A stretch of 64,000 bases of DNA, taken from contig NZ_PPSK01000002.1 in NCBI RefSeq assembly GCF_002903165.1, positions 310,001 to 374,000 of the forward strand, given 5' to 3'. The position numbers and the translations under genes are program-made. The notes beneath the pieces were generated by a model that searched no databases, was not told the origin of the DNA, and saw only the letters and a list, made by a program, of their open reading frames with translations. How positions within the stretch are numbered: position 1 is the first letter of the stretch; the number at the start of each line of letters is the position of its first letter. Below are positions 9,985-54,088 of this stretch, in pieces. The DNA comes from Halopseudomonas oceani. GTDB taxonomy: Bacteria > Pseudomonadota > Gammaproteobacteria > Pseudomonadales > Pseudomonadaceae.

Positions 9985-10896
9985 ATGCATGTACAGATAC
10001 TTGGTTCGGCTGCTGGCGGTGGTTTTCCGCAGTGGAACTGTAACTGCCGCAACTGCGACGGCCTGCGCCGTGGCACGCTGAACGCGAAAGCGCGTACCCA
10101 ATCTTCCATTGCCTTGTCGGATGACGGGGTGAACTGGATTCTCTGCAATGCTTCCCCCGACATTCGCACCCAGCTGGAGCAGACGCCTGTGCTGCAACCG
10201 GTGCGGGCGGTGCGTGATACGGCGATTCGGGCGATTGTGTTGATGGACAGCCAGATAGATCACGTGACCGGGCTGCTGACCCTGCGTGAGGGTTGCCCTC
10301 ACGAGGTATGGTGTACCGATATGGTCCATGAGGATCTGCAGACCGGCTTTCCGCTGTTCCCGATGCTGAGCCATTGGAACGGTGGTTTGCAGCGCCGTCG
10401 GATCGGTCTGGGTGAGCCATTCCGTATTCCGGCCTGCCCGGCGCTGGAGTTTTTGCCGATTCCGCTGCGCAGTGCGGCGCCGCCGTATTCGCCGCACCGC
10501 AACGACCCGCACCCCGGCGACAACATCGGCCTGCTGGTGCGCGACACCAATACCGGGGGGGTACTGTTTTATGCACCGGGCCTCGGCCAGCCGGATGACG
10601 GCCTGCTGGCGACCATGCGTGATGCCGATTGCCTGCTGGTGGACGGCACCCTGTGGCGCGATGACGAGATGGCCTTTGCTGGCGTGGGCGACAAGCTCGG
10701 CAGCGAGATGGGCCACCTGCAGCAGAGTGGGCCGGGCGGGATGATCGAGCTGCTGGATGCGCAGCCGGCCAGCCGCAAGGTGCTCATTCATATCAACAAC
10801 ACCAATCCGATCCTGGACGAGGACTCTGCCGAGCGCGCCGAACTGGTGGCGCATGGCATCGAGGTCGCCCATGACGGTATGCAGATCGTTCTGTAA
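9985..10896 (+). CDS. pqqB: PQQ biosynthesis protein PqqB
   Basis: A 303-residue metallo-beta-lactamase-fold protein of normal family length. It has the family start [24 protein letters not shown] and the [19 protein letters not shown] segment, in which Pseudomonas PqqB carries a modified metal motif, plus the C-terminal [15 protein letters not shown] signature. It acts in the cytoplasm on the processed PqqA-derived diamino acid, probably as an iron-dependent hydroxylase step before PqqC. First enzyme gene of the pqqB-E run, eleven bases before pqqC. Confidence 0.96.
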
Positions 10897-10906
10897 GGAG
10901 GCCGCC

Positions 10907-11659
10907 ATGCAGCGCGAGCCGATGAGTATTGCCGAATTCGAGCAGGCCCTGCGCGGCAAGGGCCGCTACTACCACATTCATCACCCGTTCCACGTTGCCA
11001 TGTACGACGGCAGCGCCACCCGCGAGCAGATTCAGGGTTGGGTGGCGAACCGCTTTTACTATCAGGTCTGCATTCCGGTGAAGGACGCGGCGATTCTGGC
11101 CAACTGCCCGGACCGCGACACCCGCCGCGAGTGGATTCAGCGCATCATCGACCACGATGGCGAGCCGGGCAGCGAGGGCGGTATCGAGGCCTGGCTGCGC
11201 CTCGGCGAGGCCGTGGGGCTGGACCGCGAGGTGTTGCTGTCGCAGGAGCTGGTGCTGCCGGGCGTGCGCTTTGCGGTGGATGCCTATGTCAACTTCGCCC
11301 GCCGGGCCAGCTGGCAGGAGGCGGCCAGTTCGTCCCTGACCGAGCTGTTTGCCCCGCACATTCACCAGTCGCGGCTGGACAGCTGGCCGCAGCATTACCC
11401 GTGGATTGATCCGACCGGGTACGACTACTTCCGCAAGCGCCTGAAAGAGGCCCGCCGCGACGTCGAGCACGGCCTGCGCATTACCCTGCATCACTACACC
11501 ACCTGGGAGGCGCAGCAGCGCATGCTGGAGATTCTGCAGTTCAAGCTGGACGTGCTCTGGAGCATGCTCGACGCCATGACCATGGCCTATGAGCTGGAGC
11601 GCCCGCCGTATCACACGGTCACGGCCGACAAGGTCTGGCACCGGGGGATTGCGCTATGA
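10907..11659 (+). CDS. pqqC: Pyrroloquinoline-quinone synthase PqqC
   Basis: A 250-residue, cofactor-free oxidase that carries out the last ring closure and eight-electron oxidation giving PQQ. Family signatures include [18 protein letters not shown] near the start, [29 protein letters not shown] and the C-terminal [17 protein letters not shown] 10907 follows GTAAGGAGG. The stop overlaps the pqqD start (ATGA at 11656). Confidence 0.97.
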
Positions 11660-11934
11660 ATCCGGTGGTGCGTGATAACACGCCGGTGCTGCGCCCCGGC
11701 TTTCGTCTGCAATGGGAACCGGTGCAGAACAGCCACGTGCTGCTCTACCCGGAGGGCATGGTCAAGCTGAACGAGAGCGCTGCCGAAGTGCTGTTGCTGG
11801 TCGACGGCCAGCGGCCGGTGGCTGACATCATCGACACGCTGACAGACAAGTTTCCCAATGTGCCGGGACTGGACGAAGACGTTCTGGCCTTTATCGAGGT
11901 GGCCCATGCTCAACACTGGCTCCACATCCGCTGA
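11656..11934 (+). CDS. pqqD: PqqA-binding chaperone PqqD
   Basis: A 92-residue RiPP recognition element. It binds PqqA and delivers it to PqqE. The sequence shows the winged-helix pattern with [35 protein letters not shown] and [14 protein letters not shown]. It overlaps pqqC by four bases and pqqE by 29 bases, consistent with coupled translation of three proteins that work together. Confidence 0.95.
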
Positions 11935-13048
11935 ACAGGGGCCACCGCTGTGGCTGCTGGCCGAGCTGACCTACCGCTGCCCGCTGCAGTGCCCGTACTG
12001 CTCGAACCCGCTGGAGTTTGCCAACCACAAGGGTGAGTTGAGCACCGCCCAGTGGATCGACGTGTTCACCCAGGCGCGGGCGCTGGGTGCGGCGCAGCTG
12101 GGTTTTTCCGGTGGTGAGCCGCTGGTGCGCGAAGACCTCGCCGAGTTGATCGGCGCGGCGCGCGAACTGGGTTTTTACACCAACCTGATCACCTCCGGCA
12201 TGGGGCTGACCGAGGCCAAGATCGAGGCCTTCCGCGAGGCGGGGCTGGATCATATCCAGATCAGCTTTCAGGCTTCCGATGCCGAGATCAACAACATGCT
12301 GGCCGGCTCGCGCAAGGCGTTCGAGCAGAAGCTGGCGATGGCGCGTGCGGTCAAGGCGGCGGGTTACCCGATGGTGCTCAACTTCGTGACCCATCGGCAT
12401 AACATCGACCGGATCGACCGCATCATCGAGCTGTGCGTGGCGCTGGAGGCGGATTTTGTCGAGCTGGCGACCTGTCAGTACTACGGCTGGGCGCACCTGA
12501 ACCGCGCCGGGTTGTTGCCGACCAAGGCGCAGCTGGATCACGCCGAGCAGGTCACCAACCAGTGGCGCGAGAAGCTGGCAGAGCAGGGCAACCCGTGCAA
12601 GCTGATTCTGGTCACCCCCGATTACTACGAGGAGCGCCCCAAGGGCTGCATGAACGGTTGGGGCAATATCTTCCTGACCATCACCCCGGACGGCACCGCG
12701 CTGCCGTGCCACAGCGCGCGGCAGCTGCCGGTCAGCTTCCCCAGCGTGACCGAGCACAGCCTGTCACACATCTGGTATGACTCCTTCGGTTTCAACCGCT
12801 TTCGCGGCTATGATTGGATGAGCGAGCCGTGCCGGTCCTGCGACGAAAAGGAGAAGGACTTTGGCGGCTGCCGCTGTCAGGCGTACCTGCTGACCGGTGA
12901 TGCCACCCAGGCGGACCCGGTGTGCAGCAAGTCGCCCCACCATCACAAGATTCTGCAGGCCAGAGCCGAAGCAGAGCAGCCCCAGCTGGGGATAGAGGAG
13001 TTGACCTTCCGTAATGAACGTACCTCGAGGATCATCTGCAAGGTCTGA
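11906..13048 (+). CDS. pqqE: Radical SAM enzyme PqqE
   Basis: A 380-residue radical SAM/SPASM enzyme forming the Glu-Tyr carbon-carbon crosslink in PqqA. The radical SAM cluster motif CPLQCPYC gives Cys25, Cys29 and Cys32. The C-terminal SPASM region has [39 protein letters not shown] and further cysteines for two auxiliary clusters. ATG 11906 (MLNTGS) gives the usual family length; the frame is open further upstream inside pqqD, but that extension is not family-like. Confidence 0.96.
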
Positions 13049-14912
13049 TGTAACCGTGCCCGGCCGCTGGCCGAGCGACTTCAGCGCAGCGCAGGCGGTC
13101 GCCGCCAGCGCTGATTACAGCGATCTGTGCTGCGTCGACGGCGCGCTCTGGTGGCTGACCTTCCGCCCGCAGCAGGGTGACAGCGTGCTGCAGTGTTGGC
13201 AGGACGGCGTCCCCCGCACCATTACCCCCCAAGGCCATTCCGTACGCAGCCGCGTGTATGAGTACGGCGGCGGCAGCTTTTGCGTGCTGCCCGGCGAGCA
13301 CGAACCCGACTGCCTGCTGGTGTTCGTCAACGAAGCCGATCAGCAGCTGTATCTGCAATGCCCGGAAGGGCAGCGCCTTGAACCACTGACCAGTCACCCC
13401 GAATGCCGCTACGGCGGACTCTGCGCCGACCTTGCGCGCCGCCGCGTGCTGGCGGTGGAAGAGGCGCATCTGCCGGGTCGGGTAGAGCACCGGTTGGTCG
13501 CCATCGGGCTGGACGGTTCGCGTCAGTTGCTTGCCAGCAGCGCCGACTTCTACCACAGCCCGCAAGTCAGTGATGACGGCACGCAGCTGGCGTGGATCGA
13601 ATGGGATCGCCCCGATCTGAGCTGGACGCGCACCCGGCTGATGCGGGCATCGCTGGCTGCCGACGGCAGCGTGGCGCAGGTGCAGTCGGTCGATGGTGCG
13701 GATGACGCATGGCAGCAGCCGCGCTTTGATGCCAGCGGCCAGCTGTGCTGCCTGTCTGACCGCAGTGGCTATTGGGTGCCCTGGCAGGTTGCAGCTGACG
13801 GCCCGCGCAAGTTGCCGGCGATTGCCGCCGATCACGCGCCCGCACCGTGGCAGCAGGGCAGCAACACCTGGCTGCCGCTGGAGGACGGCTGGATGGCGCT
13901 GAGCTGGAGCGAGGCCGGATACGGCCATCTGGCGCTGCGCCATTCGGTCAGCGCCGAAGAGCGGCGGCTGGCGCACGCCTACAGCCGCTTTCGTCACCTG
14001 TGCAGCGACGGCAAGGCGCTGTATTGCATCGGCGCGTCGCCCAGCTGCACCGCCGCCATTCTGCGCATTGAACTGGCCACCGGTGAACTGACCCGCCTGC
14101 TGGGCGAAGACAGTGCGCTGGACGACGCCGATCTGTCGCGCCCCGAGCGGCTGCTGTATCTGAGCGCGGGTGGCGAGAGTGCCCACGGCTTCTTCTACCC
14201 GCCGCGCAATCACGCCCAGCAGCTGGATCAGCCGCCACCGCTGCTGATCTTCACCCACGGCGGGCCGACGTCGGCCTGCTATCCGGTGCTGGATAACCGC
14301 ATCCAGTTCTGGACCCAGCGCGGCTTTGCCGTCGCCGATCTGAACTACCGCGGCAGCACTGGGTTCGGTCGCGCCTACCGCCAGCGCCTGCAGGGCAATT
14401 GGGGCGTGACCGACGTGGAGGACGTGCTCGCGGCGGTCGACTATCTGAGTCAGCAGGACAAGATCAACCCGGCGCAGGTATTTATTCGCGGCTCCAGCGC
14501 CGGCGGCTACACCACCTTGTGCTCGCTGGTGGCCGGGGCAGGGCGCTTCCGCGCGGCGGCCAGCCTGTACGGCGTCAGCGACCCGCTGCAGCTGCGCGCG
14601 GTGACCCACAAGTTTGAAGCCGACTATATTGACTGGCTGATCGGCGACCCCGACACCCAGCCCGAACGCTACGTGGAACGCTCCCCACTCGCCCAGGCCG
14701 ACCGCATCCGCACCCCGGTGATCTTCTTCCAGGGCCTGCGCGACGCTGTGGTGCTGCCCAGCCAGACCGAACAGATGGTCGCCGCGCTGGACGACAACGG
14801 CGTGCCGGTGCACTGCGTCACCTTCGCCGACGAACGCCACGGCTTCCGGCAGGCCGCGCATCTGGCGCAGGTGCTGGAAGAGGAGCTGGCGTTTTATCAG
14901 GCGTGGTTGTAA
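13014..14912 (+). CDS. S9-family peptidase of the pqq operon (PqqH-like)
   Basis: A 632-residue prolyl-oligopeptidase-family enzyme: an N-terminal beta-propeller (about 1-370) and a C-terminal alpha/beta hydrolase. The catalytic Ser lies in RGSSAGGYT, the Asp in [11 protein letters not shown] and the His in DERHGFRQ. It overlaps the end of pqqE by 35 bases and matches the position of the peptidase gene after pqqE in P. aeruginosa (PA1990). It may help release or degrade the crosslinked PqqA peptide, although M16 peptidases (PqqF/G) are the known PqqA proteases and none is visible here. An alternative start is GTG 13056. Confidence 0.85.
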
Positions 14913-17491: not shown

Positions 17492-17533
17492 GCGTGAAAC
17501 AATCGCTGACCCGTTGTTTTGAGGTTTCGAATC

Positions 17534-18901
17534 ATGCCGCGTTTGTCCGTTGAGCAGCTGTCACAAGAATGGAGTCTGTTGAATCAGCGCTTCAGCGAGC
17601 AGAGCCGCCGTTTTGTCCTGAGTTTCTGCATACGGCACGCGGTCGACCTGACCGAGACCTTCTATACCGAGATGCTGGCTGATCCGGGGGCGACACTGTT
17701 CCTGTCCCATGATCAGGTTCAGGGCCGCCTGAGTCAGTCCATGCGCCGTTGGCTGGAAGGTCTGTTTGACAGCGAGAGTGAGGGCGCGCTAACGCGGATC
17801 ATCGCTGAGCAGAAGAAGGTTGGAGAGGTGCACGCCCGCATCGACATCCCGGTCCATCTGGTGCTGCGTGGTGCACGTTGCCTGAAGGACCGCTTCATCG
17901 CACTGTTGCAGGAGGATTGCGAATTGTCTGATCGCGAGCACCTGGATGCGGCGCGATTGATGTCCGATACAGTGGATCTGGCCATGGAAATCATGAGCCA
18001 CGCTTATTCCACCTCGCATGATCGCAATTCGCGCAACGAAGAAGCCTATCGGCTGTTCTCGGTCACCCAGAACATCGCCAGCGAGAAGGAAAGCCAACGG
18101 GCTGCGCTGTTCGACTGGGAGAATCAGTTGATGTTCGATCAGGCGGTCGGTCAGCCTGGCGAGCATCTGCCGCGTATCCTCGCTTCCGAGTTTGGTCTGT
18201 GGTTCAGACACAAGGGCGCCCATGCATTTGAAGGCGCGCCTGAAGCCCGGCAGATCATTCATGCGATGGAGCAGATTGACGACGTCATCCTGCCGTTGTT
18301 CGACAGCGACTCGGCAGAGCGAATCGCACGCCTGCGTGAGCTGCGGGAAACGGTGAAGTCAATTCACTTTAATCTGGATCACCTGTTTGAGCAGAATAAC
18401 GCGCTGGAGGCCGGACGCGATGTGCTGACCCGTCTGCTCAACCGCAAGTTTCTGCCGGTGGTACTGAACCGGCAAGTCAGCCATGCCCGCAGCCACGGTA
18501 CGCCGTTCTCCGTGCTGGCGCTGGATATCGATCACTTCAAGCAGATCAATGACGGCTATGGTCACGAGGCCGGGGATCGGGTTCTGCAGCAGTTGGCCTC
18601 GCTTCTGGTCAACAGTAGCCGGGCCGGGGACTATCTGTTCCGTCTGGGCGGTGAGGAGTTTCTCATGCTACTGGTCGATACCGGACTGGACGGCGCGCGT
18701 CGCGTGGCCGAGAAATTGCGTCGGGGTGTGGAGCAGGAAGTGTTTCGCTTGCCTCAGGACCGTACTATCAGTGTCACGCTCAGCGTTGGTGTGGCGTGTT
18801 TCAATGGTCACCCGGACTACCAGCAGTTGATGCGTCGTGCCGATGATGCGCTGTATCAGGCCAAGCACAGTGGCCGCAATCGGGTGGTGGTGGTCGAATA
18901 A
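17534..18901 (+). CDS. dosC: Globin-coupled heme diguanylate cyclase DosC
   Basis: A 455-residue oxygen sensor that makes cyclic di-GMP. The N-terminal 155 residues are a sensor globin with proximal His100 in GEVHARIDIPV and distal Tyr44 in ETFYTEML, aligning with His98 and Tyr43 of E. coli DosC (YddV). A middle helical domain contains FGLWFRHKGAHAF. The C-terminal GGDEF domain has LGGEEF as its active-site loop and an upstream RAGD product-inhibition site. Length and colinearity with E. coli DosC (460) are nearly complete. No dosP phosphodiesterase gene lies beside it, unlike E. coli. ATG 17534 is used rather than the in-frame TTG 17519. Confidence 0.93.
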   Translation: MPRLSVEQLSQEWSLLNQRFSEQSRRFVLSFCIRHAVDLTETFYTEMLADPGATLFLSHDQVQGRLSQSMRRWLEGLFDSESEGALTRIIAEQKKVGEVHARIDIPVHLVLRGARCLKDRFIALLQEDCELSDREHLDAARLMSDTVDLAMEIMSHAYSTSHDRNSRNEEAYRLFSVTQNIASEKESQRAALFDWENQLMFDQAVGQPGEHLPRILASEFGLWFRHKGAHAFEGAPEARQIIHAMEQIDDVILPLFDSDSAERIARLRELRETVKSIHFNLDHLFEQNNALEAGRDVLTRLLNRKFLPVVLNRQVSHARSHGTPFSVLALDIDHFKQINDGYGHEAGDRVLQQLASLLVNSSRAGDYLFRLGGEEFLMLLVDTGLDGARRVAEKLRRGVEQEVFRLPQDRTISVTLSVGVACFNGHPDYQQLMRRADDALYQAKHSGRNRVVVVE

Positions 18902-19595: not shown

Positions 19596-20618
19596 ATGCC
19601 CGCGTTACCCCGCCTGATCGATGCATCCGGCCAGCCCCGTTATGGCCTCTTCCCCGACGGGGTGGAGGAGATCAACTACCTCGATTTTGACCTGCGCACG
19701 GTGATGGACAAGCCGCGTTCGCAGCTGGCGCGGCGGTTTGGCGCGAACCAGTTTCAGTTCATCAGCCTGCTTAGCCCTGAGCTGATTGTCGGGGTGGCGA
19801 TTGTCGATCTGAAGCTGGTCAGCAGTGCCTTCGTCTACCTGTTTGATCCACATACCCGGCGTTTTGACGAGTTCAGCTTTCTGCAGCCGCTGGCTCGTGG
19901 CACGACGTTCGAATCGCGGCCTGGCAGTGGTCGGGCGGTATTCGAGAAAGGGCGCAGCCGAATCACTGTGGATGCTGCCGGCGAAGCCGGCGTGCGTCAG
20001 TTGCTGGTCGAGCTGGCTGACGGCACCCGCATCGAAGCGCGGATTGACGAGGGTGCTAGCCAGCAGCCTTTGTCGATTTGTACCCGGGCCGGATATACGG
20101 GCTGGGTGTTTACCCGCAAGACCGCCGCGCGCGGCTGCTCTGGCAGCGTCAGTTGGCGCGGGCAGCAGTTTGATCTGCGCCAGCTCGGCGCGCTGGCGGC
20201 AGTCGACTGGACCACGGGCTTTATGCGCCGGGAAACATTCTGGAACTGGGGCAATTTGTCCTGCCGTTTGCCAGATGGTCGGCGGCTGGGCTTTAACTTG
20301 GCGGCCGGGGTCAACGAAACCGGGTTTACCGAGAACGGCATCTGGCTGGACGATCAACTGATTAAGGTCGATATGGTCGACTTTCAATTTGACCGCGTTA
20401 AGCCGCTTGAGCCCTGGCGGCTGTGTTCGGCTGACGGGCAGGTTGATCTGCAGTTCGAGCCGGCTGGTACCCGTCAGGAAAAGCTCAATGCACTGTTGCT
20501 GGCGTCCAATTTTAAGCAGCACTTCGGCCAGTTCAGCGGCGAGTTGCGGATTTCCGGGGAGACGCTGACGCTGGATGGCGCCTGGGGATTGGTGGAAGAC
20601 CATTACGCGCGCTGGTGA
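19596..20618 (+). CDS. DUF2804 domain protein
   Basis: A 340-residue soluble, beta-rich protein covering the whole DUF2804 family length. Typical segments are RYGLFPDGVEEINYLDFDLR near the start, TTGFMRRETFWNWG and NLAAGVNETGFTENGIWLDD in the middle, and GAWGLVEDHYARW at the end. The fold resembles lipocalin-like or carotenoid-isomerase-like tandem barrels, but no reaction is established. It stands alone between the repeat pair and the selenocysteine operon promoter. Confidence 0.8.
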   Translation: MPALPRLIDASGQPRYGLFPDGVEEINYLDFDLRTVMDKPRSQLARRFGANQFQFISLLSPELIVGVAIVDLKLVSSAFVYLFDPHTRRFDEFSFLQPLARGTTFESRPGSGRAVFEKGRSRITVDAAGEAGVRQLLVELADGTRIEARIDEGASQQPLSICTRAGYTGWVFTRKTAARGCSGSVSWRGQQFDLRQLGALAAVDWTTGFMRRETFWNWGNLSCRLPDGRRLGFNLAAGVNETGFTENGIWLDDQLIKVDMVDFQFDRVKPLEPWRLCSADGQVDLQFEPAGTRQEKLNALLLASNFKQHFGQFSGELRISGETLTLDGAWGLVEDHYARW

Positions 20619-20744: not shown

Positions 20745-22181
20745 ATGAAACCTGCACTTCCCGACGGCCTGATCGTCGTCGCCAAGGCTGACTGCCCGAC
20801 CTGTCGACTGGTCGAGCCGCTGCTGGCCGAGATTGCCCAGGCCGGGCCGCTGACTGTCTACGCGCAGGATTCGGCCGATTACGCCGCCGACCTGCCGTCC
20901 TCCCTGTACGACAAGACGCTCGAACACTCCTTCCACCTTGGCATCGAGTTTGTGCCGACCCTGATTCGGGTCGAGAATGGCGAAGAGGTCGAGCGGACTT
21001 ATGGCTGGCACAAGGAAGACTGGCGACAGCTGACCGGCCTGGCTGAGCTGGGCGAGGCGCTGCCGGTGATGCGCCCGGGTTGCGGCTCGAAGACGCTGGA
21101 GCCGGGGATTGCCGAGGAACTGGAACTGGCCTTTGGCGATATTCGCCTGCAGTCGCGCGAAATCGACATGGGCAGCGCCGAAGACCCGATGGAAGCCTGC
21201 TTCGAGCGCGGCTGGAGCGATGGCTTGCCGGTGGTGCCGCCGACCCCGGTGCGGGTGCTGCGGATGCTCAAGGGCACCAGCCGCCAGCCCGACGAGGTGG
21301 TGGGGTTGATGCCGCCGGACCTGGTGCCGGTGACGGTCGAAAAAGTCGCCATCAATGCAGTGCTGGCCGGCTGCAAACCGGAGTACATGCCGGTGCTGCT
21401 GGCCGCGCTGGAAGCGGCTCTGACCGATGAGTTCGGCCTGCACGGGCTGATCTGCACGACGATGTTCGGCAGCCCGATGATTGTGGTCAACGGCCCGGTC
21501 GCCCGCGCCATCGGCATGAATTCCGGCGTCAACGCGTTGGGGCAGGGCAACCGCGCCAACGCCACCATTGGCCGCGCGCTGCAACTGATCATCCGCAACG
21601 TCGGCGGTGGTCGCCCCGGCGAGATCGATCGTGCGACGCTGGGCAACCCCGGCAAGTACAGTTTCTGTTTTGCCGAGGCCGAAGACGCCGACTGGCTGCC
21701 GCTGGCGCAGGAGCGCGGTGTCGAAGCCGGGCGCTCGGCGGTGACGCTGTTCCCGGGTGAAGGGGTGCAGGGGATTGTCGATCAGAAGTCGCGCGACCCG
21801 GAATCCCTGGCGCGCTCTTTTGCGCTGTCGCTGCGCACCGTGGACCACGCCAAGCTGGCGATGGCCGGTGACGCGGTGCTGGTGGTGTCGCCCGAGCATG
21901 CGCGGGTATTTATCGAGGCTGGCTGGTCGAAGCAGCGGCTGCGCGAAGAGCTCGAACGGCTGTTGCTTGCGCCGGGTGCCGAGCTGGTGGCCGGTGCCGG
22001 GGGCATCGCCGAAGGTATCCCCGAACGTTTCAAGGATCAGCAGGTGCCCAAGTTCCGTCCGGGCGGGCTGCTGATCGTCCGGGCTGGCGGCACCGCCGGC
22101 CTGTTCTCAGCCATTATTGCCGGCTGGGCCGCTTCAGGCCCGGTCGGTTCGTCTCCGGTAACACGTGAGGTAACGTCATGA
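20745..22181 (+). CDS. Thioredoxin-fold fusion protein, partner of the UGSC selenoprotein
   Basis: A 478-residue two-part protein. Residues 1-105 look like a thioredoxin fold: VVAKADCPTCRLVEPLLAE with a CPTC redox pair, and a cis-Pro-like EFVPTLIRV. Residues 130-470 form a second alpha/beta domain with GWSDGLPVVPPTPVRV, MFGSPMIVVNGPVA, GMNSGVNALGQGNRANATIGRA and AGGTAGLFSAIIAGW, found next to UGSC proteins in other genomes as I recall, without known activity. The stop overlaps the UGSC gene start (ATGA). A redox or reductase role for the selenoprotein is inferred from CxxC and coupling. Confidence 0.7.
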   Translation: MKPALPDGLIVVAKADCPTCRLVEPLLAEIAQAGPLTVYAQDSADYAADLPSSLYDKTLEHSFHLGIEFVPTLIRVENGEEVERTYGWHKEDWRQLTGLAELGEALPVMRPGCGSKTLEPGIAEELELAFGDIRLQSREIDMGSAEDPMEACFERGWSDGLPVVPPTPVRVLRMLKGTSRQPDEVVGLMPPDLVPVTVEKVAINAVLAGCKPEYMPVLLAALEAALTDEFGLHGLICTTMFGSPMIVVNGPVARAIGMNSGVNALGQGNRANATIGRALQLIIRNVGGGRPGEIDRATLGNPGKYSFCFAEAEDADWLPLAQERGVEAGRSAVTLFPGEGVQGIVDQKSRDPESLARSFALSLRTVDHAKLAMAGDAVLVVSPEHARVFIEAGWSKQRLREELERLLLAPGAELVAGAGGIAEGIPERFKDQQVPKFRPGGLLIVRAGGTAGLFSAIIAGWAASGPVGSSPVTREVTS

Positions 22182-22708
22182 ACCACAGCATTGTGCTCGA
22201 TCCGACCGCGGAACAGGCGCCGGCGCAGCGCGCACGTCTGGCCCGTCCTGCCAGCCTTGAAGGCAAGGTGGTCGGTCTGCTCGACATTTCCAAACCACGC
22301 GGCAATGTCTTTCTCGATCGTATCGAGGAGCAGCTGGCAGCCATGGGTATTGCGGTGAAGCGCTATAACAAGCCGACCTTCACCCGCATTGCCCCGACCG
22401 AACTCAAGCAGCAGATGGCCACCGAGGTGGATCTGCTGGTGGAAGGTCTGGCCGACTGAGGGTCTTGCACGTCGTGCTGTATGCATGACATCGCAGACCT
22501 GGAGTCACGTCAGATCCCGGGAGTAGGGGTTGCCTCCAGTGAATTTGTACAGGCCGCGGCGTTGCAGTCGAAGGCCCTTGGCTTTGATCCGGCCATGGTC
22601 TTTGTTCCGCATCCGATTCAGGACCGCACCGACGATGAAATGCGCGCGCTTGCCGATGGCGCGCTGGCAGAGATTCTGCGCCTGCTGCAAAGCGGCGACG
22701 CAGACTGA
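22178..22708 (+). CDS. UGSC-motif selenoprotein (in-frame UGA = Sec94)
   Basis: The frame from ATG 22178 meets UGA at 22457-22459 and stays open to a real stop at 22708, giving 176 residues if UGA is read as selenocysteine. The junction reads VEGLAD-U-GSCTSCCMHD, exactly the UGSC motif of this family, with Cys97, Cys100 and Cys101 close by. A well-formed SECIS hairpin begins one base after the UGA, and selA, selB and tRNA-Sec follow in the same run. Codon usage and homology continue across the UGA (IADLESRQIPGVGVASSEF, FVPHPIQD). Conventional annotation would give two fragments (22178-22459 and 22481-22708). The reaction is unknown; a thiol or selenol redox enzyme is likely. ATG overlaps the upstream stop. 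Confidence 0.93.
22460..22499 (+). promoter_or_regulatory. Bacterial SECIS element
   Basis: Immediately 3' of the UGA. The lower stem is GGTCT(T)GC (22461-22468) with GCAGACC (22493-22499), carrying one bulged T. A small AC/ATC internal loop follows, then a 7-bp upper stem GTCGTGC / GCATGAC with one G-U pair. The UGUAU apical loop (22478-22482) starts 19 bases after the UGA with a G in the second loop position. Distance and loop shape fit SelB-binding bacterial SECIS hairpins. Confidence 0.85.
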
Positions 22709-22723: not shown

Positions 22724-24103
22724 ATGACGGCCACCTTTAACCGACCACCCGCGGTCGACCGGGTACTGACCTGGCCGCTGGTGCAGCAACTGATTGCCGA
22801 TCACGGCCGCGCACTGGTGCTTGATGGTGTGCGTGCCGCGCTGCAGCTTTGGCGCGAAGGTGAGATCAGCGACGACGAGGCGCTGGTGCACTGGCTGCGT
22901 CAGCATCTGCTGGCGACGCTGGCGCCGTCCATGCGCCCGGTGTTGAACCTGACCGGCACGGTGCTGCATACCAATCTGGGCCGCGCGCCCTTGCCGCCGG
23001 AAGCGGTGGCGGCGATGAATGCGGTCGCCCTCGGGGCGAGCAATCTGGAGTTCGACCTCGCCAGTGGCCAGCGTGGCGACCGTGACGATCACGTCGAGCA
23101 GTGGATCTGCCGCCTGACCGGTGCGGAGGCCGCGACCGTGGTCAACAACAACGCCGCTGCCGTGCTGCTGGTGCTCAATGCACTGGCGAACCGCCGTGAG
23201 GTGGTGGTGTCGCGCGGTGAACTGATCGAAATCGGCGGCTCCTTCCGCCTGCCCGACATCATGGCCCGCGCCGGCTGCAAGCTGCGCGAGGTTGGCGCCA
23301 CCAACCGTACCCACCCGCGCGACTACAGCGAAGCGGTGGGGCCGCGCACCGCGCTGCTGCTCAAGGCGCACACCAGCAACTACCGCATCGAAGGCTTCAG
23401 CACCGCGCTCAACGAGGCGCAGCTGGCGGCGATTGCCCGTGAGCATCAGGTGCCGCTCGCGGTCGATCTGGGCAGCGGTTCGCTGATCGACCTGCAGGCG
23501 CTGGGGCTGCCGGCCGAACCGGTGGTCGCGCAGGTGCTGGCCGAAGGCGTCGACGTGGTCACCTTCAGTGGTGACAAACTGCTCGGCGGGCCGCAGGCCG
23601 GCATCATCGCTGGCCGCGCGGACCTGATCGCGCGTATCCGCAAAAGCCCGCTCAAGCGCGCATTGCGCTGCGACAAGCTGACCCTGGCGGCGCTGGAAGC
23701 GGTGCTGCGCTTGTATGCCGACCCGGACACCCTGGTGCAGCGGGTACCGACCCTGCGCCTGCTGACCCGCAGCGCCGAGTCGATACGCCAGACCTGCGAC
23801 GCGCTGTTGCCTGACCTGCAGCACTGGGCGGGTGATGGCTTTGCGGTGGATGTCTGCGCGGTCAGCAGTCAGATTGGCTCCGGTTCGCTGCCGCTCGACG
23901 TGCTGCCCAGCGCCGCGCTGCGGTTGCGCAGCACCAGCGCCAACCGCCGTGAGCGCAGCCGTGCGCTGCGTCAATTGGCCGAGCGCCTGCGTCAGCTGCC
24001 GCAGCCGGTGATTGGCCGCATTGCCGATGACAGTCTGCTGCTCGATTGTCGTTGCCTAGAAGACCCAGCGACCCTGCGCGCGGTGCTCGGAGCGGCTGAG
24101 TGA
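22724..24103 (+). CDS. selA: L-seryl-tRNA(Sec) selenium transferase SelA
   Basis: A 459-residue PLP enzyme that converts Ser-tRNA(Sec) to Sec-tRNA(Sec) using selenophosphate. Family motifs include NLTGTVLHTNLGRAPLP, NNNAAAVLLVLNAL, KAHTSNYRIEGFS, and the PLP lysine in DVVTFSGDKLLGGPQAG. Length is normal (E. coli 463). It begins 15 bases after the UGSC gene with an AGGG ribosome site. selD, which supplies selenophosphate, is not in the window. Confidence 0.97.
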   Translation: MTATFNRPPAVDRVLTWPLVQQLIADHGRALVLDGVRAALQLWREGEISDDEALVHWLRQHLLATLAPSMRPVLNLTGTVLHTNLGRAPLPPEAVAAMNAVALGASNLEFDLASGQRGDRDDHVEQWICRLTGAEAATVVNNNAAAVLLVLNALANRREVVVSRGELIEIGGSFRLPDIMARAGCKLREVGATNRTHPRDYSEAVGPRTALLLKAHTSNYRIEGFSTALNEAQLAAIAREHQVPLAVDLGSGSLIDLQALGLPAEPVVAQVLAEGVDVVTFSGDKLLGGPQAGIIAGRADLIARIRKSPLKRALRCDKLTLAALEAVLRLYADPDTLVQRVPTLRLLTRSAESIRQTCDALLPDLQHWAGDGFAVDVCAVSSQIGSGSLPLDVLPSAALRLRSTSANRRERSRALRQLAERLRQLPQPVIGRIADDSLLLDCRCLEDPATLRAVLGAAE

Positions 24104-25959
24104 TCATCGCTACCGCTGGCCATGTCGATCACGGCAAGACAACGCTGATTCGTGCCCTGACTGGCGTGGACACCGACCGGCTGGCCGAAGAAAAGCGCCG
24201 TGGGCTGACCATCGAGCTGGGGTTTGCCTGGCTGCCGAGCGAGACCGGTGAGCCGCTGGGGTTTATCGATGTGCCCGGCCACGAGCGGTTCATCGGCACC
24301 ATGCTGGCGGGCGTCTCCGGGGTGGATATGGCGCTGCTGGTGGTGGCCGCTGATGATGGGGTGATGCCGCAGACCCGCGAGCATTTGGCGATTCTGCAAT
24401 TGCTGGGGGTACGCGAGCTGGCGCTGGTGATCAGCCGCTGCGATCTGGTCGCTGAGGATCAATGCGAAAGCATTGCCGAACAGGTTCAGGCGCTGGCGGC
24501 CGAGGCGGGTTGGTTCAATGCGGATGTATGGCGGGTATCCAGCACCAGCGGACAGGGTATCGACGCCTTGCGTCAGTCCCTGCTGGCGCGGGCCGAACGG
24601 CGGCAGGTACGGCCAAGCGACAGCCCGGCGCGCTTTATGATCGATCGGCGCTTCAGTGTCGCCGGGGCGGGCTGTGTGGTGACCGGCACGCTGGTCAGTG
24701 GTCGCCTGCAGGTGGGTCAGAACCTCTGGCTGCATGGGCAGGAGGTGCGGGTGCGCAGCCTGCAGCGGGCGTCCAGTGAGGTCGCTGAGGTTAAAGCCGG
24801 GCAACGCTGCGCGCTCAATCTGGGTGGCGCGGTGTCGGCGGAACAGCCCCAGCGTGGCGACTGGCTGAGCGAGCAGGTACTGCCGCTGAGTGACCGGCTG
24901 GACGTTTCTCTTACACAATTGCCCGACAGCCGTTGGCACCGGGGCGTGCTGCAACTGCATCTGGGTACGGCGATCCATTCGGTGCGGGTGGTGCTGTTGG
25001 ATGAGGCGGCGGGTCTGGCGCAGCTGATGCTGGAGCAGCCGGCGGCGGCGGTCTGGAGAGATCGTTTTATCATTCGCGATCCGGCGGCCAACACCACGCT
25101 GGGTGGCGGCCGGGTGCTGGACCCGCAAGGCCTGCGCCGTGGCCGCAGTCATCCGCAGCGGCTGGCATGGCTGTCAGCCTGGGCGGCCGCCAGCACGCCA
25201 GGTGAGGTCATGGCCGCAGCGCTGCAACAGGGTGCGGTGGCGTTGCCCGAACTGGCGCTGAAACTGAATCTGTCCGCCGACCAGCTTGAGCAGTTGCTGC
25301 CGGCTGAGGGCCTGATCGTGCTGGCGGCAGCCGGTCATCGGGTCGCGCTGACCGTCGAGGCCAGCGAAGCACGCTGGCAGCGGCTGGCCGAGCGTCTGGC
25401 CGACTGGCATCAGCAGCATCCCGAATTGCTCGGGCCGGGGGAGGGGCAGCTTGGGCTGGTCGGTTGTCTGCAACTGCCGTTGCCGGTGGCGCGTCAGTTG
25501 CTGCAACGCTGGCAGGCCGAGGGGCGGCTGCAACGCGCAGCCTGGGCGCTGCATTTGCCAGATCACAGGCCGCAGTTGCAGGCGGGGGATGCCGAGCTGC
25601 TGGCGCGGGTGGCTGCCGAGCTGGCACCGGGCGGGCTGCGACCGCCGATTGTCGGCGAGCTGGCCACCGCGCTGGGTATCGAGCTTGATGTGCTTAAAGC
25701 GTTCTTGCAGCGCATGCAGCGAGCGGGTGAACTGGTGGCCGTAGCACCCAACCGTTATTACCTGCCATCACAGGTGGAAGGCTTGGTAGCGGTCGCACGG
25801 CAGTTGGTGGCAGACTCGCCGTCCGGCAGTTTTAACGCCGCCGAGTACCGCGATGCCTCGGGCATCGGCCGCAACCTGACCATTCAGGTGCTGGAGTATC
25901 TGGATCGCGCCGGCGTGACCCGCTTCGTGCGTGAGCAACGTTTTCTGGTGGCAGGCTGA
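24100..25959 (+). CDS. selB: Selenocysteine-specific elongation factor SelB
   Basis: A 619-residue GTPase (E. coli 614). The N-terminal EF-Tu-like part has P-loop GHVDHGKTTL, switch DTDRLAEEKRRGLTIELGFA and DVPGHERFIGTML. The C-terminal about 250 residues form the winged helices that bind SECIS RNA. GTG 24100 overlaps the selA stop (GTGA). The next feature is tRNA-Sec 15 bases downstream, so the whole decoding set is in one run. Confidence 0.96.
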   Translation: MIIATAGHVDHGKTTLIRALTGVDTDRLAEEKRRGLTIELGFAWLPSETGEPLGFIDVPGHERFIGTMLAGVSGVDMALLVVAADDGVMPQTREHLAILQLLGVRELALVISRCDLVAEDQCESIAEQVQALAAEAGWFNADVWRVSSTSGQGIDALRQSLLARAERRQVRPSDSPARFMIDRRFSVAGAGCVVTGTLVSGRLQVGQNLWLHGQEVRVRSLQRASSEVAEVKAGQRCALNLGGAVSAEQPQRGDWLSEQVLPLSDRLDVSLTQLPDSRWHRGVLQLHLGTAIHSVRVVLLDEAAGLAQLMLEQPAAAVWRDRFIIRDPAANTTLGGGRVLDPQGLRRGRSHPQRLAWLSAWAAASTPGEVMAAALQQGAVALPELALKLNLSADQLEQLLPAEGLIVLAAAGHRVALTVEASEARWQRLAERLADWHQQHPELLGPGEGQLGLVGCLQLPLPVARQLLQRWQAEGRLQRAAWALHLPDHRPQLQAGDAELLARVAAELAPGGLRPPIVGELATALGIELDVLKAFLQRMQRAGELVAVAPNRYYLPSQVEGLVAVARQLVADSPSGSFNAAEYRDASGIGRNLTIQVLEYLDRAGVTRFVREQRFLVAG

Positions 25960-25974: not shown

Positions 25975-26069
25975 GGATGGACATCGTCCCCGGTGGGGCG
26001 CCCGGACTTCAACTCCGGTGAGATGCGCAACGCGTGTCTGGTGGGTTCGACTCCCATGTCCTTCCGCCA
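25975..26069 (+). tRNA. selC: tRNA-Sec (anticodon TCA)
   Basis: A 95-base tRNA, the length of E. coli selC, with CCA encoded. The anticodon stem CCGGA / TCCGG encloses CTTCAAC with TCA at 26009-26011. It has a long D stem (GTCCCC-GGT-GGGGC), a large variable arm and TTCGACT in the T loop. The 8-bp acceptor stem GGATGGAC / GTCCTTCC contains one T-T mismatch at the fourth pair. It lies 15 bases after selB. Confidence 0.95.
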
Positions 26070-28988: not shown

Positions 28989-29450
28989 TCCCGTCGAGGT
29001 TATCCTTCCTACCCACGGGCGCCGCGAGGCGCCCGTGGCGTGTCTGTTACCTGCACCGACCTATCACGCTGGTGAATACCGTCTCACAGGAAGAAGTGTG
29101 ACTGTTCCTGCGTCATTTTCTGTCTCGTTGCGCTCGGTTATCTGCCCCCTTTTCAGGGTGATTTATCTGTTTTGGCGCAGTAGCTGCGTTGCTCGCAGGT
29201 GATTGTTTTTATTTAAAGAATGAATGTTCAGTCATTTATTTGCTGCGTTGATGTCGCTATGTCTGTGCGCTAGCGATGGCTGAGACGGAGTTGCTTTATG
29301 TATCGAAGTGAGCTGTTGATACGGCCGGAATGATCGTTCATTTTTGCGTTGTGCGGTCTTGCCCGCTTGCCTATGCTCGTTGCGATCGGACCTGTGACTG
29401 CCAGGTCACGACTGGTCTGACGCCCTCACAAAAATAAAATGGAGCGTTGC
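28989..29450. other. katG-esterase intergenic region with strong hairpin
   Basis: This 460-base gap starts with a perfect 10-bp hairpin CACGGGCGCC-GCGA-GGCGCCCGTG (29014-29037), which probably stops katG transcription although a T-run is lacking. The rest is AT-richer (29150-29300) and likely holds the esterase promoter; I cannot assign boxes with confidence. No gene is seen. Confidence 0.5.
29014..29037 (+). terminator. Hairpin after katG
   Basis: Ten-base perfect arms with a GCGA tetraloop, 26 bases after the katG stop. There is no following T-tract, so it may act in mRNA 3'-end protection or weak termination. Confidence 0.5.
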
Positions 29451-31445
29451 ATGAAACCCGGTATGGCAAAATCCCCTTTGCGTCTCAGCTATCTGAGCGC
29501 CTCTCTTATGGTGCTGGCACTGCCGCTGGCCGGCTGTCTTGGCGGCGGCGGTGGCGGAAGTGACGACAATAGTCGCACCGGTACCTTCGTCGATAGCCCG
29601 GTAGCTGGTCTCGATTACAGTGCTGGCAACCGCACTGGCACTACCAGCGCCACCGGCGACTTCAGCTACCAGCCAGGAGAAACGGTCACCTTTTCAATTG
29701 GTGACCTGGTGCTGGGCGCCGCGGCAGGTGCTGAAATGATGACCCCACTGAGCATCATGCAGGGTGCAACCGATGCATCCGACCCGCGGGTCAACAACCT
29801 GCTTATTCTGCTGCAGTCGCTGGATGCCGACGGCAACCTGAACAACGGTATCCAGATTACCGAGCAGATTCGGGCCGAGGTCTCGCTCGCGGCGGCGGGT
29901 ATCAATTTTGATCAGCCGGTGGCCGACTTTCGCACGGCCATTGCTGGCCTGATCGGTGATCTTGAGACTGCCGGTGCGTTTTCCGATACCGATCCGCGTG
30001 CGCGCAAGGTGGTAGCCGCTGACGATGCCCGTGAGCACTTCAGCCGCTCGACCGGTGAGCGTATCGTCGTCACCACGAGTGCTGGCGAGCTGCGCGGTTT
30101 CGAGTCCAGCAACACGACCTGGCAGTTCCTTGGGGTGCCCTACGCCAAGCCGCCGCTGGGTGAGCTGCGCTGGCGTGCCCCGGAGCCGGCTGAGCCGTGG
30201 GAAGGCGTCCGCGATGCTGTCGCCTGGAGCGATCAGGCGGCTCAGAACGCGGCACTGGAGCGTTTCGGTGAAGGCGGTATGAGTGAAGATTCGCTCTACC
30301 TCAACGTCACCACTCCCAAGGACGCCGATAACCTGCCGGTCATGGTCTGGTTTCACGGCGGCGGTTTCACCGCGCTGACCAGCAATACCATCCCGTTCAA
30401 CAACCCGGAAGCGGTTGTCAGCAAGGGCGTTGTGCAGGTCTCGGTCAACCACCGACTGGGCGCCTTCGGCTACCTGGCACACCCGGAGCTGACCGCCGAG
30501 AGCAGCTACGGCGGCTCCGGTAACTATGGTCAGATGGACCTGATCATGGCCCTGCAATGGGTTCAGGACAACATCGAGGCGTTCGGCGGCAATCCGGATA
30601 ACCTGACCATTTTTGGCGAGTCCGGTGGTGGTCGCAAGGTGCTGTCGCTGATGGCGTCTCCGCAGGCCGCAGGACTGTTCCATCGCGCGATCAGCCAGAG
30701 CGGCACCCTGCGTCCGGATACCCGCACGCTGGCCGATGGTGAGGCCCTTGGCCTGACAATTCAGGAGCGCATGGGCGTCGATTCACTGGCCGAGATGCGA
30801 GAAGCGACCTGGCAGCAGGTGGCGGCAGCTGCGACGGGTAACGAGTACACCAACATCGACAACTACTACCTGCCGGTATCCGAGCGTGCGCTGTTCGAGA
30901 CCGGTCAGGATAACGACGTGCCGTTCATGTTCAGCGTCAACACCAACGACACTGTGGAGCCGACCTATACGGCTATCAACGTGTTCCCCTGGATGGCACC
31001 GCTGAAAGCCCAGCCGATGTACGCGACCTTGTTTGCCCACCAACCGGCAGGCTGGCGCGCCCGCGGCATGCAGGCCTATCACGCGGCAGAGCTGGCTTAT
31101 CTGTTCAACAAGCTCGATAGCGTGGTGACCCATTACCAGCTTGGTCTGGTACTGGATCCGGCGACCGGCAGCTCATTGGTGATTGGTGATCTGAACAACA
31201 ACGGCGTTACTGGCTCGCGCGGTGATCCTGCAGACATCATGGCTTCAGCTGGTTTCGATGCCACTGACGAGGAGGTGATCGACCGCATGATGACCATCTG
31301 GACCAACTTCGCCAAAACCGGTAACCCGAGCATTGACGGCGAGATCAGCTATCCGGCCTACAACGCTGCCTCCGAGCCTTATGTCGAGCTGAACGAGGGC
31401 GCCGAGGCCAAGGTGTATCTGGGGGGCGCGCTCAGCGATGACTGA
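29451..31445 (+). CDS. Lipoprotein carboxylesterase (type B family), copy 1
   Basis: A 664-residue protein. Lipobox LPLAGC near residue 29 is followed by a poly-Gly tether (GCLGGGGGGSDDN). Residues 40-200 form a conserved N-terminal domain (TFVDSPVAGLDYSAGN, NLLILLQSLDADGNLNNG). The type-B carboxylesterase domain follows from about 205: LGVPYAKPPLGELRW, SEDSLYLNVTTP, WFHGGGF oxyanion loop, nucleophile in FGESGGGRK, and catalytic His probably in AYHAAELAYLF. It hydrolyses carboxylic esters at the cell surface or periplasm; substrate unknown. ATG 29451 has GGAG seven bases upstream and is preferred over ATG 29439. Tandem paralogue follows 100 bases later. Confidence 0.85.
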   Translation: MKPGMAKSPLRLSYLSASLMVLALPLAGCLGGGGGGSDDNSRTGTFVDSPVAGLDYSAGNRTGTTSATGDFSYQPGETVTFSIGDLVLGAAAGAEMMTPLSIMQGATDASDPRVNNLLILLQSLDADGNLNNGIQITEQIRAEVSLAAAGINFDQPVADFRTAIAGLIGDLETAGAFSDTDPRARKVVAADDAREHFSRSTGERIVVTTSAGELRGFESSNTTWQFLGVPYAKPPLGELRWRAPEPAEPWEGVRDAVAWSDQAAQNAALERFGEGGMSEDSLYLNVTTPKDADNLPVMVWFHGGGFTALTSNTIPFNNPEAVVSKGVVQVSVNHRLGAFGYLAHPELTAESSYGGSGNYGQMDLIMALQWVQDNIEAFGGNPDNLTIFGESGGGRKVLSLMASPQAAGLFHRAISQSGTLRPDTRTLADGEALGLTIQERMGVDSLAEMREATWQQVAAAATGNEYTNIDNYYLPVSERALFETGQDNDVPFMFSVNTNDTVEPTYTAINVFPWMAPLKAQPMYATLFAHQPAGWRARGMQAYHAAELAYLFNKLDSVVTHYQLGLVLDPATGSSLVIGDLNNNGVTGSRGDPADIMASAGFDATDEEVIDRMMTIWTNFAKTGNPSIDGEISYPAYNAASEPYVELNEGAEAKVYLGGALSDD

Positions 31446-31545: not shown

Positions 31546-33570
31546 ATGGCTATTTCAAGACTGCGTAAACCGGCGCGTGTAGCCGCGCTGGGAGTCGGTT
31601 TGACCCCGCTGTTTCTGGCCTTGACGGGATGTCTGGGCGGTGGTGGCGGTGGCTCTGATGGTGATGCCACGCGCACCGGGGTGTTTGTTGACAGTCCGGT
31701 CGCCGGACTGGATTACGAGGGCAGTAAAACGCCTGCCGGACAGACCGATGCCGAGGGAGGATTCCGCTACCAGGCGGATGAAACCATTCGCTTCTTCATC
31801 GGCGATCTGGCGTTGGGGGCGGCAGTCGGTGCCCCGGAATTGACGCCGCTGAGTGTTGTCTCCGGAGCGGAGTCTGCGACTGATCAGCGGGTCACCAATC
31901 TGCTGATTTTGCTGCAGAGCATCGATGCCGATGGCAACCTGAATAACGGTATTCAGATCACCCACGAGATCCGCCAGGAAGTCTCGTTCAATGCTGGCAA
32001 TATTGACTTTGACCAACCCAGTGCTGATTTCCGCGCCAGCCTGACGGCCATGCTGGAACGGCTGGATGACGTCGGTGCGTTCACCGATACCGATCCGCGT
32101 GCTCGTGCGGTTGTTGATGCCGCTGACGCTCTGGCGCATTTTCAGCGTTCGACCGGCGCGCGTGTTGAAGTCGAGACCACCGGTGGCACCTTGCGCGGAT
32201 TTGAAGCCAACGCCTCGACCTGGCAGTTCCTCGGGGTTCCCTATGCCAAGCCCCCGTTGGGTGAGTTGCGCTGGCGCCCGCCGCAGCCGGCCGAGCCGTG
32301 GGAAGGTGTGCGTGAAGCGACGTCCTGGGCGGACCAGTCAGCGCAGGACTACACCCTAGAGCGGGTCAATGAAGGGGGCATGAGCGAAGATTCGCTTTAC
32401 CTCAATATCACCGCACCCAAGGATGCTGACAACCTGCCGGTCATGGTTTGGTTCCACGGCGGTTCGTTCGCCATCCTGTCGGCCAACTCGCCGCAGTACA
32501 ACAACCCCAACGGACTGGTCACCAAGGGCGTGGTGCAGGTCAGCGTCAATCACCGACTGGGGCCATTCGGTTACATTGCCCATCCGTTGCTGAGTGCCGA
32601 GAGTGGCTATGGCGCCTCTGGCAACTACGGCCAGATGGACCTGGTCATGGCGCTGGAGTGGATTCGCGACAATATCGCCGCCTTTGGCGGTGACCCGGGC
32701 AATGTCACCATTTTCGGCCAGTCCGGCGGCGGCGGTAAGGTCTATTCGTTGATGAACTCGCCGCAGGCGGTTGGGCTGTTCCACAAGGCGATCGTGCAGA
32801 GTGGCGTCGCACCGTTGGAGACCGACAGCTCGCCTGCCGATTCGCTGGCGGTATCTGAAGCCATTGGTGAGGCACTGTTCGAGCGGGTTGGGGTATCCAC
32901 CCTGGAGCAAGCGAGGGCGTTACCCTGGACGGCGTTTGCCAAGGCGGATCTGGATAACGACATCCCGCGGCAGACCTATCGCCCCAACTCGGATAATTAC
33001 TATCTGCCCAACACCTATTACGACAATGTTCAGCAGGGCATGCCCAGCGATGTACCGTTGATGGCTGGGGTGACCAATGGTGACTACACCACGATACGCG
33101 GGGCATTGCCGATCTGGTTGCAGCAGCGTAGTGCCGACTATCAGTCCAATCAGTACATCTATCGCTTCAGCCGGGTGCCGCCGGGCTGGGATGATCTGGG
33201 GCTGAGCAGTTGCCATGGCTGTGAGCTGCCGTACCTGTTCAATTACCCGGCCGGTATGGTGCAGAACTACCTGCTGGGGCTGGTATTGACCGATGCCTAC
33301 ACCCGGCCGCAGATCGGTGACCTGAACAACAACGGTGTGACCGGGACCCAGGGCGACGCAGCGGATATCTACGCCTCCATGCGCTGGGGCGCGCAGGATA
33401 TGGCCATGGCCGATTTGCTGATGACCCAGTGGAGCAACTTCGCCCGTACTGGCGACCCGAGTACCGAAACGCTGGCCTGGACGCCCTACAGTCTGGCAAA
33501 CGATGCCCTGATGGAGCACGGCAATGACGGTGTCGCGGCGATGACCACCGGAGTCGCCGAGACTCCCTGA
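31546..33570 (+). CDS. Lipoprotein carboxylesterase (type B family), copy 2
   Basis: A 674-residue paralogue of the preceding protein with the same architecture: lipobox LALTGC, tether GCLGGGGGGSDGD, the SPVAGLDY domain, then the esterase domain with LGVPYAKPPLGELRWRPPQP, WFHGGSF, nucleophile FGQSGGGGK and His in CHGCELPYLF. In the nucleophile elbow Gln replaces the usual Glu before Ser. Ribosome site AGGGAG lies before ATG 31546. The pair arose by tandem duplication and has diverged, mostly in the C-terminal third. A strong terminator follows at 33627. Confidence 0.85.
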   Translation: MAISRLRKPARVAALGVGLTPLFLALTGCLGGGGGGSDGDATRTGVFVDSPVAGLDYEGSKTPAGQTDAEGGFRYQADETIRFFIGDLALGAAVGAPELTPLSVVSGAESATDQRVTNLLILLQSIDADGNLNNGIQITHEIRQEVSFNAGNIDFDQPSADFRASLTAMLERLDDVGAFTDTDPRARAVVDAADALAHFQRSTGARVEVETTGGTLRGFEANASTWQFLGVPYAKPPLGELRWRPPQPAEPWEGVREATSWADQSAQDYTLERVNEGGMSEDSLYLNITAPKDADNLPVMVWFHGGSFAILSANSPQYNNPNGLVTKGVVQVSVNHRLGPFGYIAHPLLSAESGYGASGNYGQMDLVMALEWIRDNIAAFGGDPGNVTIFGQSGGGGKVYSLMNSPQAVGLFHKAIVQSGVAPLETDSSPADSLAVSEAIGEALFERVGVSTLEQARALPWTAFAKADLDNDIPRQTYRPNSDNYYLPNTYYDNVQQGMPSDVPLMAGVTNGDYTTIRGALPIWLQQRSADYQSNQYIYRFSRVPPGWDDLGLSSCHGCELPYLFNYPAGMVQNYLLGLVLTDAYTRPQIGDLNNNGVTGTQGDAADIYASMRWGAQDMAMADLLMTQWSNFARTGDPSTETLAWTPYSLANDALMEHGNDGVAAMTTGVAETP

Positions 33571-45178: not shown

Positions 45179-45623
45179 TATTTTTATTCTCCATACGCAA
45201 GCTGTTGTTGTTGGTTGAGTCTTGCGGCTATCAGTTAAGAATCAGTGCTGGCAAAGGGCAAGTACTCACTGTCTTGTTTTGAGACGTTCTCGCGAGCATG
45301 GATAGGAAGGCATCAGTGGTCTGGATTGCTGTAACAGAGGCATCACCCATTCGGGTGAGTTCATTGGATTTGCTGGTGTTGGGTTAGCCCAAATGGGTGA
45401 TTTGGTGGCAGGGATGGAGCCGATAGCGTCGGTGATCTGGTCAGGCCTGTCTGGAATAACCAGTTCAGGGGGGTTGCCGAGCGATTACATAATCGTGACA
45501 ATCGGGACGGCCTCGCAGTCATATTGCAGGCTTATAACAATAATTTTGCAAAGAAAGGTCAGTACCTTATCCCCAACTGCCCTGCGCCCGATCACACTCG
45601 GGATTCTTTGCCATGGAGAGAGC
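45179..45623. promoter_or_regulatory. Divergent promoter region between lipoprotein hydrolase and gsp operon
   Basis: This 445-base gap contains no gene; the frame open upstream of gspC lacks a ribosome site. Possible boxes for gspC are GTGACA (45495-45500) and TCATAT (45519-45524), 18 bases apart. They are weak, and I give them only as candidates. Confidence 0.35.
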
Positions 45624-48541: not shown

Positions 48542-48544
48542 GCG

Positions 48545-50050: not shown

Positions 50051-50052
50051 GC

Positions 50053-54069: not shown

Positions 54070-54088
54070 TGAAGACAGGAAGCAAGGC

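Follow-up and report, generated by a model that had tools for sequence, protein, structure and literature searches.

A UGSC-family selenoprotein gene in Halopseudomonas oceani and its constant upstream partner, a candidate two-protein selenoenzyme

What does a selenoprotein of the UGSC family do, and with which other protein does it act? These questions are raised by a gene in Halopseudomonas oceani (assembly GCF_002903165.1, contig NZ_PPSK01000002.1, positions 310,001 to 374,000), studied here within a window, by which we mean the whole stretch of 64,000 nucleotides that was analysed. Published descriptions of the family date back to 2008 at the latest, when the Global Ocean Sampling selenoproteome presented it without a function (PMC2398784), and it is reported to be among the most abundant selenoprotein families of marine metagenomes (PMC2398784, PMC9402790). 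UGSC-motif selenoproteins are also described in genomes with a tRNA-Sec of anticodon CUA (PMC5330540). The first-pass annotation of this DNA, made from the letters alone, took the biochemical function to be not established, and passages on the family in the UGSC literature bear this out, naming it as an abundant family or among numerous others and assigning it no function.

The gene (22178..22708, forward strand) encodes 176 amino acids, and a UGA at 22457..22459, which comparison suggests is read as selenocysteine, forms codon 94. Re-reading the sequence confirmed that the frame crosses this UGA as VEGLAD-U-GSCTSCC, UGSC motif included, as first described, with one correction: 82 codons rather than 83 follow the UGA, up to the TGA stop at 22706-22708. 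As was also pointed out then, automatic calling splits the gene, and the mechanical ORF list gives 22178-22459 and 22481-22708. Its attribution to a family known in databases as UGSC (seleno)proteins proved correct, since the protein exceeds the curated cut-offs of both Pfam PF24696 (142.9 bits; cut-off 25) and NCBIfam NF041046 (145.7 bits; cut-off 125). Both profiles carry the family name, and the U/C-G-S-C motif with its Sec/Cys exchange is present. The match covers almost the full length of the protein, which is an ordinary member, and no departure from the family was seen in the gene itself. The closest fetched loci, labelled Halopseudomonas aestusnigri and Pseudomonas abyssi, are 98% identical over the protein. 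PF24696 passed its cut-off in 5 of 398 sampled genomes of the window's phylum (own genome included) and in 22 of 296 sampled genomes from the phylum to which an acidimicrobial relative belongs.

A scan of GTDB genomes yielded 384 confirmed relatives, the best 80 of which, together with the window's own genome (L001), make up a set of 81 loci. TGA occupies the residue-94 column in all 81, which are near relatives by selection, and none of these fetched loci ends at residue 93; homologues that consistently end there had been named in the first-pass annotation as fatal to its reading. Because the set consists of near relatives, the exchange of Sec for Cys at residue 94, proposed in that annotation as a test, was sought in more distant homologues, and Cys codons were found in nine of them (TGC in L086, L103, L117, L184, L185 and L187; TGT in L120, L121 and L186). 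On a tree of 79 proteins, a subset of the homologues with several long branches of unsure placement, the Sec/Cys label needs at least five changes, three of which are forced by well-supported branches. In the codons past the UGA, differences from 12 near relatives are mainly at third positions (75/82 codons).

Residues P9, K39, K65, D93, Sec/Cys94, G95, C97, D104, F123, H145 and P146 are invariant across the 75 proteins of alignment A6, whose rows were chosen from the available loci and which served as the basis for fold and tree; K39 and D93 lose their invariance in alignment A4, which includes L098. Near copies were left out of A6, as were L085 and L088 (broken), L098 (contains N), L099, L122, L123 and L130; L099 and L130 have one TGA each. 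At L085/L088, a Cys-type UGSC homologue carries an extra in-frame TGA about 30 codons past the motif and off the Sec column, which could stem from sequencing error, from breakage of the gene or from another cause. L124 and L125, with PF24696 matches below the family cut-off, were dropped since their ORFs look by eye like secreted flavoproteins; L123 (29.2 bits) was retained because its ORF contains both the UGSC domain and the C-domain described below.

The consensus bacterial SECIS element is a hairpin just 3′ of the UGA. A SECIS-like hairpin immediately follows the UGA here (22460..22500, forward strand), with an apical stem of 22471-22477 paired to 22483-22489 and a loop at 22478-22482 that holds GU at 22479-22480. 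A hairpin at 22460-22499 had been claimed initially, and folding agrees: the segment 22457-22500 reaches −20.3 kcal/mol with a z of −3.17, equalled by 0 of 200 shuffles. All seven apical pairs are kept in 67 of 82 distinct Sec sequences (drawn from 116 rows), against a mean of 5.9 and a maximum of 14 in 1000 runs of synonymous recoding of the 82; because these sequences are related, the comparison is not an independent-sample probability. The loop GU is present in 81 of the 82. The window sequence by itself speaks less strongly, as 9.8% of its synonymous recodings retain seven pairs and 55 of 2000 fold no less stably. By pair counts, 96.3% of cells are paired versus 93.7% in shuffles, and cells altered on both sides number 11 versus 1.2, a value reached by 0 of 500 shuffles. 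Pairs altered on both sides show no excess (2 versus 0.9 expected, reached by 107 of 500 shuffles), and RNAalifold recovers just the five inner pairs. Six Cys-codon homologues, L085 included, keep 1, 3, 4, 4, 4 and 5 of the seven apical pairs, and among these six L103 still carries the loop GU. No Rfam model matched the SECIS element at E up to 5. Taken together, these comparisons support well the reading of the window gene as encoding a UGSC selenoprotein through UGA recoding, with a SECIS element.

The genes needed for such recoding lie next to it. As the first-pass annotation stated, selA, selB and selC are adjacent, all three downstream and on the same strand: selA, for L-seryl-tRNA(Sec) selenium transferase, at 22724..24103 (TIGR00474, 572 bits), selB, for the Sec-specific elongation factor, at 24100..25959 (TIGR00475, 395 bits), and selC, for tRNA-Sec (UCA), at 25975..26069 (Rfam RF01852, 74.7 bits). 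A selD gene was found by profile elsewhere in the genome, in its Cys form and beside an apparent tRNA 2-selenouridine synthase gene (the Cys and this neighbour were read by eye), and the genome complement of selA, selB, selC and selD is thereby complete. Across the 81 loci, selA/selB lie at most 2.5 kb downstream of the UGSC gene in 56 and are absent there in 24, while one contig is too short; in two of the 24 (L077 and L081) the sel genes lie a few kb upstream instead.

Within the genus, PF24696 was found in 27 of 37 genomes and selA exceeded its cut-off in the identical 27, the 37 being related genomes and not 37 independent cases. Both counts are 25 of 33 among genomes at least 90% complete, and among the ten remaining genomes G728, which is 79% complete, carries a fragment of selA that scores below the cut-off. 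The match between UGSC and selA is not a matter of linkage alone, because the two are on separate contigs in G710, G714 and G718 and about 400 kb apart in G727. One other selenoprotein family was searched in the genus, the formate dehydrogenase alpha subunit TIGR01553, which passed its cut-off in 5 of 37 genomes. It has an in-frame TGA in G714, G718 and G727, all of which carry selA and UGSC; the other two have neither the TGA nor selA. Because the TGA form occurs in three genomes only, 24 of the 27 selA-bearing genomes have no Sec-containing member of this formate dehydrogenase family. With UGSC and selA either both present or both absent, the genus is well suited to a simple genetic test of the role of UGSC.

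Directly upstream of the UGSC gene lies a partner gene of 478 amino acids (20745..22181, forward strand), made up of a thioredoxin-like N-domain with C17-P-T-C20 and a C-domain (residues ~145-476). Its stop codon and the UGSC start share 4 nt, an arrangement seen in 59 of 80 loci with starts chosen by rule. The partner is directly upstream on the same strand in 80 of the 81 loci and has its thioredoxin part as well as its end in 78, and the contig of the remaining locus (L018) begins 242 bases before the UGA. It is retained in all 24 loci without selA/selB within 2.5 kb downstream, and the Cys-codon locus L086 also has a complete partner upstream. The first 100 residues resemble thioredoxins, CPTC included, with a best profile E of 0.0011 and with Foldseek in agreement, although the scores stay below the thioredoxin family cut-offs. 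What sets the protein apart from thioredoxins is the fusion of this domain to one of about 330 residues that is absent from the libraries searched; at the thresholds used, Pfam, NCBIfam and the PDB gave no convincing relative of the C-domain by sequence. A DUF2804 protein is encoded just upstream of the partner (19596-20615, forward strand) and, among the loci listed, occupies the same place only in L002, L003, L004 and L006.

The C-domain is the more widespread part of the partner. Of the 42 loci L089-L130, all but L124 and L125 with their below-cut-off PF24696 matches (40 loci) have a similar domain, as do all five plasmid-borne loci, four of which (L184-L187, three of them haloarchaeal) have a Cys codon and the fifth (L183) a TGA. 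The thioredoxin domain is dispensable, because the C-domain proteins of diverged paralogues are mostly without it. Of 63 aligned partners, 62 retain C210 and 58 retain C308. Across 39 distant loci, the remaining neighbours in common are repeated chiefly inside close groups, and in the window's branch the only steady neighbours are the partner and the sel genes, the latter in 56 of 81 loci.

UGSC and C-domain are fused in three loci. The fusion in L122 has a UGA and the motif U-D-G-C. That in L123 (1477-3198), which adjoins an ORF resembling aldehyde dehydrogenase by eye, has Met in the position of Sec94 and Ser in that of Cys97, so that the UGSC domain can exist without its redox residues. On the Acidovorax plasmid p2-T1 (L183, 8640-9158), the frame reads through the UGA and on into the C-domain, yet the annotation in the record covers no more than 97 codons, UGA included; it is cut at a probable Sec codon. 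Gene order and fusions together strongly support a pairing of UGSC with the partner C-domain. A UGSC/Unknown_1 fusion is described in PMC2398784, and Unknown_1 probably corresponds to the C-domain of the separate partner described here; L122, L123 and L183 would be such fusions, whereas the window has two separate, overlapping genes. Passages on the family in the UGSC papers mention no partner besides the fused Unknown_1 and no relation to PrdB/GrdB.

The AlphaFold2 model of the UGSC protein (pLDDT 94.5) alternates beta strands and alpha helices and places Sec94 just before helix 95-110. Foldseek returned an FMN reductase and flavodoxins as top matches; among the 50 matches listed, TM is at most 0.50 over the query and no thioredoxin appears. 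The fold is thus predicted to be flavodoxin-like and not thioredoxin-like, which disagrees with the thioredoxin-like fold supposed in PMC2398784. As pointers to specific kin the Foldseek matches were dismissed, being generic Rossmann/flavodoxin-type folds, and sequence comparison with solved structures in the PDB gave nothing convincing for UGSC or for the GrdB-like profile, and thioredoxins alone for the N-domain of the partner.

Profile comparison suggested a more specific relative. We take PF07355 to represent PrdB/GrdB, the selenoprotein subunits of D-proline and glycine reductases, and PF09338 the pyruvoyl subunit of the GrdE/PrdA type. For comparison, 30 PF07355 loci from one phylum were fetched, and profiles were built from 13 of the 30 (seven PrdB-like and six GrdB-like proteins). 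The open frame ends at a TGA in all 15 loci examined; GTGTR[CS]G follows in full-length GrdB-like proteins and PLC or LTC in most short PrdB-like ones, and in L154 and L156 a stop comes soon after the TGA. With 31 diverse UGSC proteins, hhalign placed Sec on Sec against both the PrdB-like profile (P 1.7e-5, probability 79%) and the GrdB-like profile (P 1.6e-3, probability 16%), and 51 UGSC proteins of lower diversity gave P 9.3e-4 and 0.021; as a yardstick, GrdB-like against PrdB-like gives P 3.1e-15. Either score was reached by 0 of 200 column shuffles, reversed profiles gave P 0.46 and 0.4, and three other profiles used as controls gave P 0.15-0.61. Masking Sec and the Cys at +3 still left P 4.4e-5 against PrdB-like.

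As in UGSC, Sec in PrdB/GrdB stands ahead of the aligned helix and is followed by a similar E-x-x-G-I-P stretch. The PrdB-like proteins share the U-x-x-C arrangement (UPLC, ULTC), whereas the GrdB-like UGTG-T-R-C is without a Cys at +3, and the alignment covers the C-terminal half only. PF07355 itself was not reported for the window protein or for 51 UGSC members scanned at E up to 10, and UGSC is therefore not filed as a PrdB/GrdB member. The C-terminal half of UGSC is probably a remote homologue of the Sec domain of PrdB/GrdB, a relationship that falls short of membership. The glycine/proline reductase system also has a pyruvoyl subunit, and none was recognised beside UGSC in the window: PF09338 is in neither the partner nor the other window proteins scanned. 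The partner itself has no sequence link to a GrdE-like profile (P 0.06 over 21 columns) or to GrdB (P 0.24), hence no pyruvoyl subunit was found in it.

The most likely mechanism, to which we assign about an even chance, is a two-protein Sec-dependent reductase recycled by the partner's thioredoxin domain. The UGA would be recoded by the neighbouring SelA, SelB and tRNA-Sec with SelD supplied from elsewhere in the genome, and UGSC and its upstream partner would make up one enzyme. UGSC would contribute a flavodoxin-like domain, distantly related to the PrdB/GrdB Sec domain, with Sec94-x-x-Cys97 at a helix start; Sec94 would act on a bond of the substrate by reduction or cleavage and be oxidised to a Sec94-Cys97 bridge, the CPTC thioredoxin domain would reset that bridge, and the large C-domain would bind the substrate. 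The reductive chemistry, the recycling by the thioredoxin domain and the site of the substrate are the inferred parts of this scheme.

Genomic neighbourhoods bring in a different reading, a doubtful one in our estimate, in which UGSC and the C-domain act together as a lyase or hydratase in catabolism and Sec serves as nucleophile or ligand with no net reduction. Neighbours of the haloarchaeal Cys-type homologues include CoA transferases, lyases, an amidohydrolase, tricarboxylate/TRAP transporters and LLM-class flavin oxidoreductases, not all at each locus, which suggests catabolism rather than stress defence in that branch and need not hold for the window's own. The lack of both redox residues in L123 points the same way, as does the best Foldseek match of the partner model, class I fumarase; this match is a weak one, with a TM of 0.25 over the query and an rmsd of 13.6, and has no sequence-profile link (P 0.34), and homology of the partner to class I fumarase was rejected. 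The invariance of Cys97 in the 75 A6 proteins, L123 lying outside A6, suits a Sec-Cys redox pair.

It is unlikely that UGSC is a general thiol-disulfide or peroxide-detoxifying selenoprotein, with the partner merely its thioredoxin-like reductant. Such a role would fit the UxxC motif next to a CPTC partner and the grouping of UGSC with redox families, along with the supposed thioredoxin-like fold, in PMC2398784. The predicted fold is flavodoxin-like, however, the constant companion is the large C-domain and not the thioredoxin domain, and the four plasmid-borne homologues with annotated neighbours have organic-acid/CoA-ester metabolism genes around them, among transposases, regulators and others. 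That the UGA is a true stop between two separate short proteins is highly improbable: mechanical ORF calling splits the frame and the plasmid record annotates a homologue only to the UGA, but the UGA is present in 81/81 loci and followed by a conserved frame that stays open, Cys exchanges are found, and the conservation of the SECIS exceeds what codon choice accounts for.

The two-protein Sec-dependent reductase can be extended to a broader and more tentative proposal, which we regard as possible and hold with low confidence. The host genus is aerobic. UGSC and its partner may form a separate two-component class of selenoenzyme in aerobic bacteria, whose Sec domain descends from the same ancestor as that of the D-proline and glycine reductases and in which a new, thioredoxin-fused catalytic subunit replaces the pyruvoyl subunit, and this class could be the main reason why most of the genus keeps its Sec machinery. 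The constant partner, the C-domain/UGSC fusion in the loci studied, the predicted flavodoxin-like fold, the probable PrdB/GrdB link and the co-occurrence with selA were computed here and are new. Through the constant partner, the natural fusions and the probable link to Sec reductases, an orphan family becomes a testable two-protein enzyme.

Several other genes of the window were recognised in passing. PQQ cofactor genes lie at 9985-13045, with pqqE recognised by profile and pqqB and pqqC named by eye from Pfam domains and gene order, and are followed by an S9-family peptidase (13014-14909). A globin-coupled diguanylate cyclase at 17519-18898 (forward strand) combines a protoglobin, a DosC middle domain and GGDEF, and its product is likely an oxygen-sensing c-di-GMP enzyme. 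Further along the same strand are tandem lipoprotein-like ORFs at 29439-31442 and 31546-33570, the first of the carboxylesterase family and the second alike by eye, and an apparent type II secretion cluster (45393-56519) whose genes run, by eye, in the order GspC to GspN.
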